Source of the DNA: Balneolales bacterium
GTDB taxonomy: Bacteria; Bacteroidota; Rhodothermia; Balneolales; Natronogracilivirgulaceae
DNA length: 54,656 nt
Assembly: GCA_007128855.1 (NCBI GenBank)
Contig: SKWQ01000061.1
Location: forward strand, 1 to 54,656
Reading direction: 5' to 3'
In this document: positions 41,024 to 48,327 of the stretch, in pieces
Position numbering within the stretch: position 1 is the stretch's first letter
Layout: each line of letters starts with the position of its first letter
Notes under the pieces: generated by a model
Databases searched by the model: none
What the model saw: only the letters and a program-made list of their open reading frames with translations
Told to the model about the DNA's origin: nothing
Made by a program: the position numbers and the translations under genes

Positions 41024-41250
41024 AGGGTGTTGTCTTCGTTGGCGGAGTTAAGGCGTAAACATACAAAAAAAACAGACAATTCCTCCGATTGCGCTCACCT
41101 GATCACATCCATACAGAATAATTCCTGCCGGATATAAAGATTACGGTGAAGACTGGTCATTGCTGAATACCGGTGTGTAAAAGGAGTAGTAACAAAAGTG
41201 CGGTTTGCTGACTGCTGTATTCGTCAAAACACCGGGTCCAATTAATGGCA

Positions 41251-41265
41251 AAAATTCGTATTGTG
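41251..41265 (+). promoter_or_regulatory. Possible promoter element upstream of sigma factor gene
   Basis: AAAATTCGTATTGTG lies 35 bases before the sigma start and closely resembles AAAATTCGTATTTTG at 18755 upstream of gatB. It could be a -7 box of the main sigma factor. Confidence 0.3.
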
Positions 41266-41299: not shown

Positions 41300-41866
41300 A
41301 TGACCAATGTAACCGAGTATCAGCAGTGGGCTCGCAGAATCCGCGCTTCTGATGAGAAGGCGTTTCATGACCTTTTCATGGATTCCTATCAGCCACTTAT
41401 GCGATACGCAATCAATTTTGTGAAAGACCCGGATGTCGCAAGCGACATTTTGCAGGAGGTGTATGCCCATCTGTGGGATATCCGCGACCGGCTGGATGAA
41501 AATAAGTCCCTCAAGGCCCTGCTGTACCGGATGGTCAAAAACCGCAGCATCAATGTGATCCGGTCCCGCCGCCCCGTCCGCCTGGATGATGTCGCCCCTT
41601 CGGAGCAGCCCAGCGAGGAGATGGCAACCGATTCCTTCCGGGTCGATGCAGACGGGATTCTGGAACAGCGGCTGAGCGAGTGGATCGAGGCCCTTCCGCC
41701 CAGACAGCGGGAAGCTTTTGAGCTCAGCAGATTTGAGGGGCTGGACCATCATGAAATTTCCGAGGTCATGGAATGTGCACCCCGGACTGTGAACAATCAT
41801 ATAGTGAGTGCCCTGAATACGTTACGGGAGCAGCTGAACCACTGGAAGGCAGAACGTGAGAATTGA
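41300..41866 (+). CDS. ECF RNA polymerase sigma factor (FecI-like)
   Basis: A 188-residue extracytoplasmic-function sigma factor. Region 2 has FHDLFMDSYQPLMRYAINFVKDPDVASDILQ-type sequence (core-binding helices), LLYRMVKNRSINVIRSR ends region 2, and region 4 has LPPRQREAFELSRFEGLDHHEISEVM with the recognition helix APRTVNNHIVSALNTLREQL. The start MTNVTEYQQWARR replaces a longer frame from 41261 that lacks a start context. The FecR-type anti-sigma gene begins one base after its stop, so both are translationally linked. Such sigma factors typically respond to an outer-membrane receptor signal; no receptor gene follows here. Confidence 0.95.
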   Translation: MTNVTEYQQWARRIRASDEKAFHDLFMDSYQPLMRYAINFVKDPDVASDILQEVYAHLWDIRDRLDENKSLKALLYRMVKNRSINVIRSRRPVRLDDVAPSEQPSEEMATDSFRVDADGILEQRLSEWIEALPPRQREAFELSRFEGLDHHEISEVMECAPRTVNNHIVSALNTLREQLNHWKAEREN

Positions 41867-41867
41867 A

Positions 41868-42809
41868 ATGAACAGAAAAGAACCGGACAAGAGCATACTG
41901 AACCATTTTCCCGGGAGTGAGCGGGACGATGTGCTGCTGATCTGGGACAAGGCCAGGTACAGCGATCCACAGGCCGGTGATCGGGCGGGGGTCGACCTGC
42001 AGGCCGAGTGGACGCGGTTGCAGAAACGCATCCATCCGGCTCGTCCATCCCTGCAGATCCGTCAGATGAGGACCCGCAATTCCACGGCAAAGACCTATGC
42101 TTTCATCGCTGCGATGGCAGCGGTCCTGCTGGGCGGGTTCATCATGTGGTACCTTTTTGTGCCGGTGAGCATGGAAGCCCCAAGGGGGGCGTATTCCACC
42201 TTCACATGGGACGATGGAGTCACCGTGGAGCTCAACAGCGGCTCCGTGATCACCTGGAACCGCAGTTTCGGAAACGGGCACCGCAACGTGCGTCTGCACG
42301 GGGAGGCCTATTTCGATGTGCCATCCTCAGACAAGCCGTTTGTGGTTGAGACGCGCACGGCCCGGGTGGAAGTGCTGGGGACACGGTTCAACGTCCGGTC
42401 CTGGACAGACGACCCGGACGGGCGGACCACGCTTACCCTGATTGACGGCCAGGTTCGGCTCGCATCACTTCTTGAGCCGGAGCATCAGGTGCTGCTTCCG
42501 CCGGGACACAGCAGCCAGATCGATCTGCACAGCGCAGAACCGCGGGTGCCCGAGCCGGTGGATACCGAACAGGCGCTGGCATGGCGCAATCACGGGTTTT
42601 ATTTTTCGTCGATACCGATGAGCGAAGTGGCCGCCGAGCTGGAACGGCGCTATGACACAAGCATCATCATTGAGAACGAGTCATTGAGCCAGCGGGAACT
42701 TACCGTTTATCTTCCCCGACCGGGCGATCTTGAAACCATCATCGAGACCATTTGCTTCGTGACAGACTGCCGTTATGAAGAGCAGGGCGGACAGGTGCAC
42801 CTCTACTGA
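41868..42809 (+). CDS. FecR-type anti-sigma factor with DUF4974 tail
   Basis: A 313-residue inner-membrane regulator. A cytoplasmic N-terminal region (residues 1-75) should hold the sigma factor, one membrane helix spans about 78-98 (FIAAMAAVLLGGFIMWYLFV), then a periplasmic FecR domain (about 115-210) with VTVELNSGSVITWNRSF, GEAYFDV and VEVLGTRFNVRSW, and a DUF4974-like C-terminal domain with MSEVAAELERRYDTSI. In FecIR systems the periplasmic part senses the STN domain of a TonB-dependent receptor. ATG 41868 lies one base after the sigma stop; a GTG at 41856 overlapping it is possible. Confidence 0.93.
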   Translation: MNRKEPDKSILNHFPGSERDDVLLIWDKARYSDPQAGDRAGVDLQAEWTRLQKRIHPARPSLQIRQMRTRNSTAKTYAFIAAMAAVLLGGFIMWYLFVPVSMEAPRGAYSTFTWDDGVTVELNSGSVITWNRSFGNGHRNVRLHGEAYFDVPSSDKPFVVETRTARVEVLGTRFNVRSWTDDPDGRTTLTLIDGQVRLASLLEPEHQVLLPPGHSSQIDLHSAEPRVPEPVDTEQALAWRNHGFYFSSIPMSEVAAELERRYDTSIIIENESLSQRELTVYLPRPGDLETIIETICFVTDCRYEEQGGQVHLY

Positions 42810-42915
42810 CAGGGTTTTCACGGGATCATGCCCGGTAATGGACATTTCATCTGTTTAACTCCCGACAGCAAATCTGACCGCTTAATTTCTGCAGGAATTA
42901 TCCTAAATTACCTGC

Positions 42916-43452
42916 ATGCGGCGCATCAAATCACATTCCCCGGGATTATGCAGGACACTGACAGCGGCTCTCTGTCTGACGGTCGTTTTTTTCCAAAGCA
43001 CAGCGGGAAATCCGGTCAAGGAAGCTTATCCGCCGCCGGGAGATGTTGCCCTGCAGACACATGACCAGGGGAGGAATGCCTGGAGTTTCGAATTCCGGAA
43101 TATAACGCTGGATCGCGCCCTGTACCTGATTTCGGAACGCACGGGTGCCGAGTTTATCTACGAACCCAGGGTCACGGCAGGGGCCATGGTGGATGCGGAA
43201 TTCAGGGAGAAAGAACTTATATCGCTACTTGACGCGCTGCTGCTGCCATCCGGGCTGGAAGCCCGCCGGATCCGGACCGGCATCTATGTCATCCGGCAAT
43301 CAATGAGGAGGGCACTTCCAACGCAGATGCTCACAACAAGGCGAACTTACGAGCCGGTACCGACACCCATCCAACCGCAACAGGTTCCGGTAAAAGCGAC
43401 GGACCGCACCGTTCCATTGCGGGAAATCATCAGGCAGATCGTTGTACCATGA
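42916..43452 (+). CDS. Free-standing secretin/TonB N-terminal (STN) domain protein
   Basis: A 178-residue exported protein. After a signal peptide (LTAALCLTVVFFQSTAG) comes one STN domain (about residues 55-125): FEFRNITLDRALYLISERTGAEFIYEP, then the strand/helix pattern ELISLLDALLLPSGLEARRIRTGIYVIRQ. In ordinary sigma/FecR loci this domain is the N-terminal signalling part of a TonB-dependent receptor; here no receptor plug or barrel follows. The last 50 residues are Pro/Thr/Gln-rich. The stop overlaps the next start by four bases (ATGA). It may be the periplasmic input for the FecR protein upstream, which is inference from position. Confidence 0.83.
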   Translation: MRRIKSHSPGLCRTLTAALCLTVVFFQSTAGNPVKEAYPPPGDVALQTHDQGRNAWSFEFRNITLDRALYLISERTGAEFIYEPRVTAGAMVDAEFREKELISLLDALLLPSGLEARRIRTGIYVIRQSMRRALPTQMLTTRRTYEPVPTPIQPQQVPVKATDRTVPLREIIRQIVVP

Positions 43453-44213
43453 GTTACAGTGAAAAGGCCTCCAGGTATGCCGAAAGCCTGATGCTGGGGG
43501 AACCGGCCCTGCTGAAGGAGTTGCGGGAGGTCACCGCGCGGGAGCTGCGTCACGATGACATGTTGAGCGGACCGGTCGTGGGTGGGTTGCTGAACATGCT
43601 GATCCGGATCAGCGGCGCCCGGACGGTACTCGAAGTGGGCACGTTCACCGGCTACGCCACCTTGTGGATGGCCATGGCGCTTCCGTCCGATGGCCTGGTG
43701 GTCACCTGCGAGTCCAATGAGAAATATGCCGAAATCGCGCGTCGCTTTTTTTCACGCTTCCAGGCCGGACAGGGGCAGGTTGGAGATGGATGCACAGGCA
43801 GGATAGGGAGCAGGCCGTCACCCGGACCTGCTGGTGATAAAAGCATGCGGCAGGGTGATGCCGCTGGGATTCAGCTCCTCATGGGTCCCGCTCTGAATGC
43901 ACCGCTGCCGGACCGGATCGATTTTGTTTTCCTGGATGCCGACAAGGAGCATTATCCCGAATATTATCAACTCATAAAACCGCTGCTTGCACCCGGGGGG
44001 CTCATGGTCATCGACAACGCATTCTGGGGTGGCGAGGTGTGGGGTGCCGGATCGGGAACCGGCGACAGGGAGGTGTGTAAGGGGACCGCTGCAACCGGGC
44101 ACAAGGCACAGGCCATTGACCGCCTGAACCAGGCGATTGCAAGAGATCCGGATGTTGAAAATGTGGTCCTTACCGTACGCGACGGCCTGCATCTGGTGAG
44201 AAAAATAAGATAA
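43449..44213 (+). CDS. Class I SAM-dependent O-methyltransferase
   Basis: A 254-residue methyltransferase of the COMT/caffeoyl-CoA O-methyltransferase type (Methyltransf_3). SAM-binding VLEVGTFTGYATLWMA is near residue 60, the second motif DFVFLDADKEHYPEYY provides the metal-binding Asp, and VIDNAFWGGEVW the other ligand region; the terminal VLTVRDGLHLVRK is typical. A roughly 30-residue Gly/Arg/Pro-rich insertion (GQGQVGDGCTGRIG to about DAAG, residues 103-135) splits the usual fold and is not in family members I know. It overlaps the STN gene by four bases, so its expression is tied to the sigma/FecR operon. Substrate unknown. Confidence 0.9.
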   Translation: MSYSEKASRYAESLMLGEPALLKELREVTARELRHDDMLSGPVVGGLLNMLIRISGARTVLEVGTFTGYATLWMAMALPSDGLVVTCESNEKYAEIARRFFSRFQAGQGQVGDGCTGRIGSRPSPGPAGDKSMRQGDAAGIQLLMGPALNAPLPDRIDFVFLDADKEHYPEYYQLIKPLLAPGGLMVIDNAFWGGEVWGAGSGTGDREVCKGTAATGHKAQAIDRLNQAIARDPDVENVVLTVRDGLHLVRKIR

Positions 44214-44440
44214 TTTGCACTTAATTATTGGCATATCCCCCATCATTGCCTTAAATTAGTCTGTCCGTCCAGGCGAACCGGGTCGTGCCAGACGAATTGG
44301 CATTTAAACAAATCTGGGGTTTAACCGGTATCGCCAGCAACAAGTGAACCTGGTGTCTGTACGTGCCGGGAGCGCGTTATTATTATTTGCGGCGGGTTGC
44401 TCTATTTTTCCATCGAACTGTCATTAATCGGAAATCTCTC

Positions 44441-45706
44441 ATGAAAAAAACACTTACCGTTATCGCGGCAAGCCTGCTCGTACTGTGTCTGAATGCAACT
44501 ACGGTCCTTGCGGGCGGTTATCAGCTCAATCTGTTGGGACAAAGGCAAATTGCCATGGGACACACCGGCGTCGGAATGCCGCTTGATATTGCCACTATCT
44601 CAATGAATCCGGGCGGACTTGCAACTATAGACCACAACGCGATCCTCCTGGGCTCCAGCGCCACTTTTATCAGTACCCATTACCGCGCTCCGGCGCCATC
44701 CAGCTATGTCGCAAAAACAGACAGCCCGATGCGCACCCCGTTCAGCATCTATGCCAGCTATGTCACCCCGGTTGAGAATCTCCGCGCGGGGATCGGGATC
44801 TATACTCCCTATGGTAATGCGCTGCGCTGGGAAGAGGGTTGGAAATACCGTTTCCTGATGCAGGAAATTTCACTGACCGCCATATTTGTACAGCCTACGC
44901 TCAGCTATCGCATTGGTGACCGGATCGGCATCGGAGCCGGATTCATTTTTGCCTATGGTGCCGTCAACGTACAGCGTGATCTTCCCGTTGATGCCCAGGA
45001 TGGTGTGACACCCATGGTGGAGCTTGACGGAACAACCACGGCATTCGGCTATAATGTGGGTATTCATGGAAAAATTACGGACCAGATTTCGTTTGGTGCT
45101 GCCTACCGGTCACAGATAGATATGGAAATGTCCGGCGGGGATGCCGATTTTACCGTACCTGTATCCCTTAGTGGAACATTTCCCGCCGGGAACCGTTTCG
45201 ATGCGGCCCTGCCGCTGCCGGCCGTGCTCAGTTTCGGTCTGGGATTCCGGGCCACGGAAAACCTGAGACTGAATGCCGATGCCAACCTGACGTTCTGGAG
45301 CGCCTACGAAAACCTCAGCTTTGAATTTGAGCAGAATCCGGAAACGCTGAATTCCGTCGGGCTCCGCAATTTCAACGACCGCTGGATCTTCCGAATCGGC
45401 GGTGAATTCGATGCCACCGATCGCTTGCAGCTCCGTCTTGGCGGCTATTATGACCCGTCACCGGTCGACGAAGGGTACATCACTCCGGAAACACCTGACG
45501 TTGACCGTATCGGTATTTCCGGTGGATTCGGTTATGCCTTTACTCCGCAGACCGAAATCAATGCTTCGGTGCTTCTGGTGCTCTCAAGCCCGCGGGAGCA
45601 GACAGCCCAGGATGCCATGGAGGCCGGAACTTTTGGCACCGTCCCGGTCGGTGAATTTGTCACACGCGCCTGGATTCCAGGCATTTCCATTTCTCACCGT
45701 TTCTGA
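44441..45706 (+). CDS. OmpP1/FadL-family outer membrane transporter
   Basis: A 421-residue outer membrane beta-barrel protein of the FadL type, which takes up long-chain fatty acids or hydrophobic compounds. Signal peptide KKTLTVIAASLLVLCLNATTVLA, then the N-terminal hatch GGYQLNLLGQRQIAMGHTGVG with ISMNPGGLATI, and many alternating strands such as IGAGFIFAYGAVNV and GFGYAFTPQTEINASV, ending in WIPGISISHRF with the terminal Phe expected for barrel assembly. ATG 44441 directly precedes the signal peptide; an upstream GTG is spurious. The SGNH lipoprotein 84 bases downstream is a common partner in Bacteroidota, so they may handle the same lipid. Confidence 0.93.
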   Translation: MKKTLTVIAASLLVLCLNATTVLAGGYQLNLLGQRQIAMGHTGVGMPLDIATISMNPGGLATIDHNAILLGSSATFISTHYRAPAPSSYVAKTDSPMRTPFSIYASYVTPVENLRAGIGIYTPYGNALRWEEGWKYRFLMQEISLTAIFVQPTLSYRIGDRIGIGAGFIFAYGAVNVQRDLPVDAQDGVTPMVELDGTTTAFGYNVGIHGKITDQISFGAAYRSQIDMEMSGGDADFTVPVSLSGTFPAGNRFDAALPLPAVLSFGLGFRATENLRLNADANLTFWSAYENLSFEFEQNPETLNSVGLRNFNDRWIFRIGGEFDATDRLQLRLGGYYDPSPVDEGYITPETPDVDRIGISGGFGYAFTPQTEINASVLLVLSSPREQTAQDAMEAGTFGTVPVGEFVTRAWIPGISISHRF

Positions 45707-47145: not shown

Positions 47146-47157
47146 AATGCAGCATTG

Positions 47158-48327
47158 ATGCATCTGCTTTCTGATATCAGAAGGGATGTGCGACATCCCA
47201 AATCACGGCCCGGTAGTTACGAATGGTGGTATTTCGATGGAATTTCGGAAGACGGTAACTATCAGGTCGTGATCATTTTTTATGAGGGATGTCCTTTCTC
47301 CACCCGGTATGTCCGGAGCGTGGAGAAAGACCCGGAGGGGGAAGATGCCCGGGCCGCCCGTCATCCCGCCATCAGTATCTCGCTGTACTACAAGGGAGTA
47401 CCGATTTTCTACAGTCTGAGCGAATATCCGCCGGACCAATGCTCTTTTGACGAGGGGCAGGCCGCTGTGGCCATCGGGGAGAATTCGCTTCGTTTCACTG
47501 AACGGGAGACGCACGGAAGCGATGGCTTCGGAAGTTACGACCTGCGCATCAACGAGCGGCTTCCATCCGGTGACGAACTCAAGGGCATCCTCACGTTCAG
47601 CGGGATGGATCCCAACGAGCGGCTTTTTACCGGGAACGGCAAGTCGCCGGCCGCTTCTGCTGATTCCACTGTTGCAGATGGGGAGGACGTACCTGGGCAT
47701 CTCTGGAATCTGGTGCTGCCGCGAGCCAACATGCAGTGCCGCATCAATCTTCTGCGGAACGGACTGGTCAAAAAGGAGCTGAAGTTTGAGGGAGCGGGAT
47801 ACCACGATCACAATCTCGGAAGCGAACCCATGAAGGAATCATTCCGGGACTGGTACTGGGGGCGGGTGCATTTTCCGCATGCGACCCTGGTGTACTACAT
47901 CATGAACAAAAACGGGGTACCGGGCAGCAAAGAGCGGATCCAGGATTATCGCGCCTGGCTTATCAGTCCGGACAACCGCCGGCTGCTGCATTCGCTGGAG
48001 CTGACCGGTCTCAAGAAGCGATCCACCAACGGATTCCTGCTTCGTCCGGCCCGGCGGCTGCACCTGCGCGACAAGGAGCTGGAAATCGAGGTGCGCCATC
48101 GGGTGCTGGCTGATTCCGGACCGTTTTACTGCCGATACATCTCGGAGGCAAAGCTGGTCCATCCCGCACTTGAGAAGCAGACAGCCACCGGAATTGCAGA
48201 GTATATCCGTCCCGACAGGATACATCGCCGGCTGTTCTGGCCGCTGGTACACATGCGTCTGAGGTACGTGGACCAGAAACCGCACTGGGTGCAGAAATCA
48301 CCGCGGCTTTTCCGCTGGACCTGGTAG
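47158..48327 (+). CDS. CrtC-like (carotenoid 1,2-hydratase family) protein
   Basis: A 389-residue protein of the CrtC/AttH-like lipocalin superfamily. It has the N-terminal signature YEWWYFDGISEDGNY, the metal/acid-rich FEGAGYHDHNLGSEP, and DWYWGRVHFPHATLVYY, matching hydroxyneurosporene synthase (carotenoid 1,2-hydratase) homologues. No other carotenoid genes are nearby, so water addition to a carotenoid is unproven. ATG 47158 was chosen; TTG at 47155 is adjacent. A Ser/Ala/Asp-rich loop near residues 166-181 (SPAASADSTVADGEDV) looks like an insertion. It follows the SGNH gene by 12 bases and is probably in its operon. Confidence 0.82.
   Translation: MHLLSDIRRDVRHPKSRPGSYEWWYFDGISEDGNYQVVIIFYEGCPFSTRYVRSVEKDPEGEDARAARHPAISISLYYKGVPIFYSLSEYPPDQCSFDEGQAAVAIGENSLRFTERETHGSDGFGSYDLRINERLPSGDELKGILTFSGMDPNERLFTGNGKSPAASADSTVADGEDVPGHLWNLVLPRANMQCRINLLRNGLVKKELKFEGAGYHDHNLGSEPMKESFRDWYWGRVHFPHATLVYYIMNKNGVPGSKERIQDYRAWLISPDNRRLLHSLELTGLKKRSTNGFLLRPARRLHLRDKELEIEVRHRVLADSGPFYCRYISEAKLVHPALEKQTATGIAEYIRPDRIHRRLFWPLVHMRLRYVDQKPHWVQKSPRLFRWTW

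Follow-up and report, generated by a model that had tools for sequence, protein, structure and literature searches.

Background

Cell-surface signalling systems of the FecI/FecR/FecA type, FoxA/FoxR and PupB/PupR among them, combine an ECF sigma factor, a FecR protein with periplasmic beta and STN-like subdomains, and an STN partner that is fused to a plug and a 22-strand barrel. PupR has been crystallised bound to the STN domain of PupB, and in that complex alpha1 and beta2 of the STN domain form the contact (PMC7186176). The exported STN domain of FoxA is able on its own to block signalling and to protect FoxR from proteolysis in Pseudomonas, and in vivo cleavage of this domain has been proposed (PMC11637429). 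Within the open-access literature searched, the closest precedent for the locus described here is the PUMA3 system (VreA-VreI-VreR) of Pseudomonas aeruginosa, where sigma factor, FecR-type anti-sigma factor and an exported, barrel-less protein with an N-terminal STN domain are likewise encoded together (PMC2729926, PMC4971064), although an earlier description elsewhere is possible. VreA is regarded as a mostly soluble protein (PMC2729926).

The window analysed in this work is a whole contig of 54,656 nucleotides (C207) from a draft Balneolales genome (2.65 Mb, 89% complete). It carries a sigma-FecR-STN cassette that has its sigma factor, FecR subdomains and STN partner in common with the FecI/FecR/FecA type, but whose STN protein has no plug, barrel or carboxypeptidase-like domain. 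With the Bacteroidota arrangement of sigma, FecR and STN-carboxypeptidase-plug-barrel receptor, as found on contig C254 of the same genome, it shares gene order and STN homology; it differs in that the receptor is reduced to the STN domain and in that the FecR protein belongs to a separate clade. Compared by its published description, VreA is larger and has a modelled TolA/TonB-like C-terminal domain, where the window protein has a linker and a short peptide; the order vreA-vreI-vreR, under PhoB, is here sigma-FecR-STN, and the phylum is a different one. Since a comparable case is known from Pseudomonas, the locus is best called an unusual form of a known type, and the barrel-less STN partner as such is no novelty.

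Results

The initial annotation had described a sigma factor, a FecR anti-sigma factor, an exported 178-residue protein consisting only of an STN domain and an overlapping O-methyltransferase (OMT). A reading-frame check recovers all four genes on the plus strand at the positions first given, and families, profiles and structure models agree with the description. The FecI-like ECF sigma factor of Bacteroidota type (41300-41866; TIGR02985 4.4e-39, above cut-off, with PF04542 and PF08281) has an alternative TTG start at 41261 on the same strand, and a single base pair separates its stop from the ATG of fecR (41868-42809; PF04773 and PF16344, above cut-off). The STN gene (42916-43452) overlaps by four bases (ATGA) that of a class I SAM-dependent OMT (43449-44213; PF01596 3e-45), and a FadL/TodX-type outer-membrane channel follows, also on the plus strand (44441-45706; PF03349 4e-53). 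These profile searches make the sigma, FecR and methyltransferase assignments firm. No TonB plug domain is present on any part of the 54.6-kb contig.

Identification of the STN protein depended on its relatives. Pfam STN matches the window protein alone weakly (E=0.08, below cut-off) and a direct sequence search of the PDB with this single protein returned zero matches, but PF07660 is matched by 7 of the 12 members of the orthologue alignment (best 1.4e-6), and profile-profile comparison of the orthologues with receptor STN domains gives a probability of 99.4% (E=2.5e-21). The AlphaFold model of the core (aa 53-130, 43072-43305, signature GLEARRIRTGIFVIR) reaches a pLDDT of about 90-96 and matches FoxA, FecA and PupB-type signalling domains, with Foldseek returning FoxA (1e-4), FecA and chain B of the PupR:PupB entry (target TM 0.78). 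Once relatives are included, sequence and model thus point firmly to an STN domain and nothing else. A free-standing copy of the FecR C-terminal domain was also considered and rejected; PF16344 is weakly matched by 8 of the 12 alignment members, but the local FecR C-domain shows no profile similarity to the protein, against 99.4% for receptor STN domains.

The protein is likely exported to the periplasm, its probable Sec signal peptide (42916-43008; net charge +4, then LTAALCLTVVFF) being judged by hydropathy. Pairwise dN/dS (omega) among orthologues, in which saturated pairs are indicative only, is about 0.1-0.2 for the core, which is under strong purifying selection, about 0.3-1.0 for a flexible linker of low constraint (aa 131-159, 43306-43392; pLDDT about 52-58), and about 0.1-0.4 for a C-terminal peptide ending in VPLREIIRQIVVP (aa 160-178, 43393-43449). 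The N-terminus, like the linker, evolves fast. The tail after the core comprises only ~48 aa, mostly of low model confidence, and contains no TolA/TonB-like domain in the model. Its last 19 residues (consensus [LV][RS][EK][IV]I[RL][QKR]IV[VAL]P) are constrained, following a loosely constrained linker, and they are similar in G013, where the STN and OMT genes do not overlap. Compared with about 20 receptors of the genome and with the usual pattern [DE][DE]hhV[TV][AG], this peptide gave no convincing match to a TonB box, and the evidence for an amphipathic helix is no more than suggestive (p at best about 0.1).

STN-only orthologues without internal stops are found in nine of the ten genus genomes (the window's included) and in G011, G012, G013 and G019 of the family. 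Their frames span 125-252 aa, the shortest (G003) being cut by a contig end, so that the gene is intact in at least 12 genomes from five genera, with one further copy truncated by the assembly. In G018 the barrel-less protein has diverged further and measures 212 aa; the next gene there lies on the opposite strand. Order-level homologues, on the other hand, are STN-carboxypeptidase-plug-barrel receptors of 880-1150 aa encoded behind sigma-FecR. No STN-only system was found elsewhere in the phylum among 297 sampled genomes, and the sole short match outside the family (G145, 267 aa) proved to be a disrupted SusC-like gene next to an intact copy. The initial annotation had cautioned that homologues might continue into a barrel, which would point to a frameshift in the window; none of the orthologues does so. 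That the protein is a functionless receptor remnant in decay could draw on its small size and on its fast-evolving N-terminus and linker, but the selection data already contradict it, as do the intact copies across genera and the constrained C-terminus, and we consider it extremely improbable.

The predicted FecR model (pLDDT 78) shows the expected layout, with a cytoplasmic helical N-terminus, a transmembrane helix at about 42081-42158, a periplasmic beta subdomain and an STN-like C-terminal subdomain at about 42582-42806, and its Foldseek matches include BDI_1681 (E=1e-19) and the PupR CCSSD (E=2e-14). In a tree of 37 FecR proteins a single branch splits off all partners of STN-only proteins (support 89/72, rising to 99/99 for the core clade without the divergent G018), which indicates a single origin. 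The FecR protein of G014 also falls inside this clade, its downstream gene being cut off. Every orthologous FecR gene with readable downstream sequence, G012 included, is followed by an STN-only gene; in G002 and G009 the two genes lie on different contigs and adjacency is assumed because both contigs end at that point. The STN segment TGAEFIYEP, counterpart of the PupB contact region, is conserved among orthologues. In G005 (L042) the FecR-STN spacer is enlarged by CCCATC/CCAAC-like short repeats. Intact STN-only orthologues, strong selection on the core and a single clade of FecR partners together rule out a frameshifted or truncated receptor.

Behind each of the three further sigma-FecR pairs in the same genome (on C254, C8 and C172) comes an STN-carboxypeptidase-like protein. 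On C254 this is a full receptor of 1083 aa, while on C8 and C172 the frames run off the contig ends; the window system is hence the only STN-only one among the four. The initial annotation had allowed that a complete receptor with its own STN domain, regulated by this sigma factor, might exist elsewhere. The complete system on C254 does carry its own STN domain, but its FecR falls in a different clade. For an STN protein that stands alone, is intact, exported and conserved, and belongs with its FecR, signalling with no covalently bound transporter is, as first proposed, the natural reading.

Gene order in the genus and in G013 is MAF, sigma, FecR, STN, OMT, FadL and GDSL esterase. A 390-aa gene downstream of the esterase (47155-48327 in the window) travels with FadL across the family. 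OMT comes after STN in the genus as well as in G011, G013 and G019, and the 4-bp overlap suggests STN-OMT co-transcription; both observations favour the view that the relay chiefly controls OMT and FadL, with the OMT as its working part. However, G017 has MAF-OMT-FadL with the cassette absent, and in G012 sigma-FecR-STN sits at another place, OMT and FadL being together on a separate contig. OMT and FadL are hence neighbours rather than demonstrated parts of the relay, and their control as its main purpose, also at odds with the absence of an ECF-like element before FadL, appears very unlikely. Together with G010, where MAF-FadL-GDSL lacks the cassette, these arrangements imply that sigma, FecR and STN are relocated or lost jointly, OMT-FadL being the older neighbourhood. 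Genome comparison thus makes sigma-FecR-STN the unit. Of the four-gene synteny originally put forward, the first three members are kept together and the OMT linkage is lost in G012.

The same comparisons bear on whether the STN protein is a divorced receptor part, acting non-covalently with a TonB receptor devoid of STN, or with the neighbouring FadL, to report transport. The genome offers 23 plug-domain places outside the contig, and a downstream position of FadL is shared by the genus and G013. On the other hand, G011 and G012 conserve FadL with no linkage to the cassette, G010 and G017 contain it although searches of them yielded no cassette, and a conserved upstream region of its own precedes it; its adjacency not being kept across relatives, it was rejected as the STN partner. 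The separate STN-less receptor anticipated by the initial annotation has counterparts in paralogues of the full receptor, but these are only ~32% identical and unlinked. This explanation is, on balance, an unlikely one.

In G012 (L047:4732-5094, minus strand) and G014 (L180:1992-2336, plus strand) the divergent neighbour of the cassette-family sigma gene encodes a small exported protein that, as read from sequence, appears to consist only of a carboxypeptidase-regulatory-like domain, the domain following STN in full receptors. Homologues in frames of 116-148 aa occur in G002, G009, G011 and G019, and a second receptor domain may thus be free-standing too. In G019 and G011 (L186:1480-2639, L187:694-1848) an ECF sigma gene follows a small putative protein of this kind on the same strand, with no adjoining FecR.

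Aligned upstream regions reveal a conserved 15-base element, AAAAATTCGTATTGT (41250-41264, plus strand), some 35 bp before the sigma ATG, which is a candidate for the ECF -10 region (CGTAT) of a promoter under sigma's own control. It has one exact match in each of nine of the ten genomes searched, in eight of them on the sigma-bearing contig upstream of sigma and in the ninth (G009:C62) on that genome's sigma contig, whereas G013 offers no more than a match with one mismatch, located away from the cassette. The element hardly occurs outside the cassette, and a shorter core of it does not exceed chance frequency in the window. This pattern is compatible with an autoregulated sigma factor with few other targets, although loosely matching promoters would escape the search. 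Aligned upstream regions and a window search show no ECF-like element before FadL; the 227 bp preceding this gene (44214-44440) stand out for their conservation across the genus (TTATTGGCATATC...TTAAATTA, TGGGGTTTAACCGGTAT), which suggests a promoter and leader of its own. Between MAF and sigma, TGGTCAT and GTGTGTA (41154-41180) are kept in most genus members and could belong to either divergent gene.

Discussion

We propose, with a probability of roughly 0.55, that this locus is a three-gene cell-surface-signalling cassette in which the STN protein acts as a resident co-inhibitor guarding FecR. The cassette would have arisen from the common sigma-FecR-receptor layout once all of the receptor beyond its STN domain had been lost. 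The exported STN protein would then pair with the periplasmic domain of FecR, much as the PupB STN domain does with PupR, and FecR so bound would stay folded and shielded from periplasmic proteases, keeping sigma sequestered. Once a signal causes the STN protein to be removed, titrated or degraded, FecR would be exposed to cleavage, after which processing of the membrane-bound remainder would free sigma to transcribe at least its own operon. We infer the binding, its protective direction, the proteolytic steps and the autoregulation. Profile searches show that the genome encodes site-2 (M50) and S41 proteases, of the kinds that such a scheme requires and hence candidates for FecR processing. 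In the sigma-E system, RseB is likewise a soluble periplasmic protein that guards an anti-sigma factor against proteolysis, but its fold and components are unrelated and the likeness is one of analogy only.

The initial annotation had suggested that a soluble periplasmic sensor may drive the relay. In line with the classical FecA model, the STN protein would receive a ligand, or contact an unlinked outer-membrane protein, and then contact FecR to release sigma. Such an activator would have the same binding partners as a guard, and the constrained C-terminal peptide on its flexible linker could dock to an outer-membrane partner, in keeping with the published PUMA3 scheme, in which the second domain of VreA might touch a receptor (PMC2729926). 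In Pseudomonas, however, over-produced STN represses signalling instead of activating it, and the FoxA work favours a free STN domain as a FecR-protecting brake (PMC11637429), which leaves the driving role uncertain. The tail also lacks the length to form a second folded domain comparable to that of VreA, and the searches brought up no partner. We therefore regard the soluble activator as somewhat doubtful. A gene for the STN domain alone would directly supply a guard of the FoxA type, and with moderate confidence we prefer guard to trigger for this reason. Some points nonetheless count against the guard: its direction rests by analogy on work in Pseudomonas, VreA as the nearest analogue proved unnecessary for sigma-VreI activity in low phosphate (PMC4971064), and the constrained C-terminal peptide is left unaccounted for.

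Whether the STN domain is an on-switch or a guard of the anti-sigma factor until the receptor withdraws it is a question that has recently been reopened. Here evolution has already split the STN domain from its receptor, in a stably inherited system of single origin, and deletion or expression of the 178-aa protein would allow guard and trigger to be separated with no transport function confusing the result. More tentatively, it is possible that in this lineage of the Balneolales the STN protein has become a dedicated periplasmic co-anti-sigma factor that dispenses with an outer-membrane receptor and senses the envelope itself, with the C-terminal peptide as its sensing or docking element.
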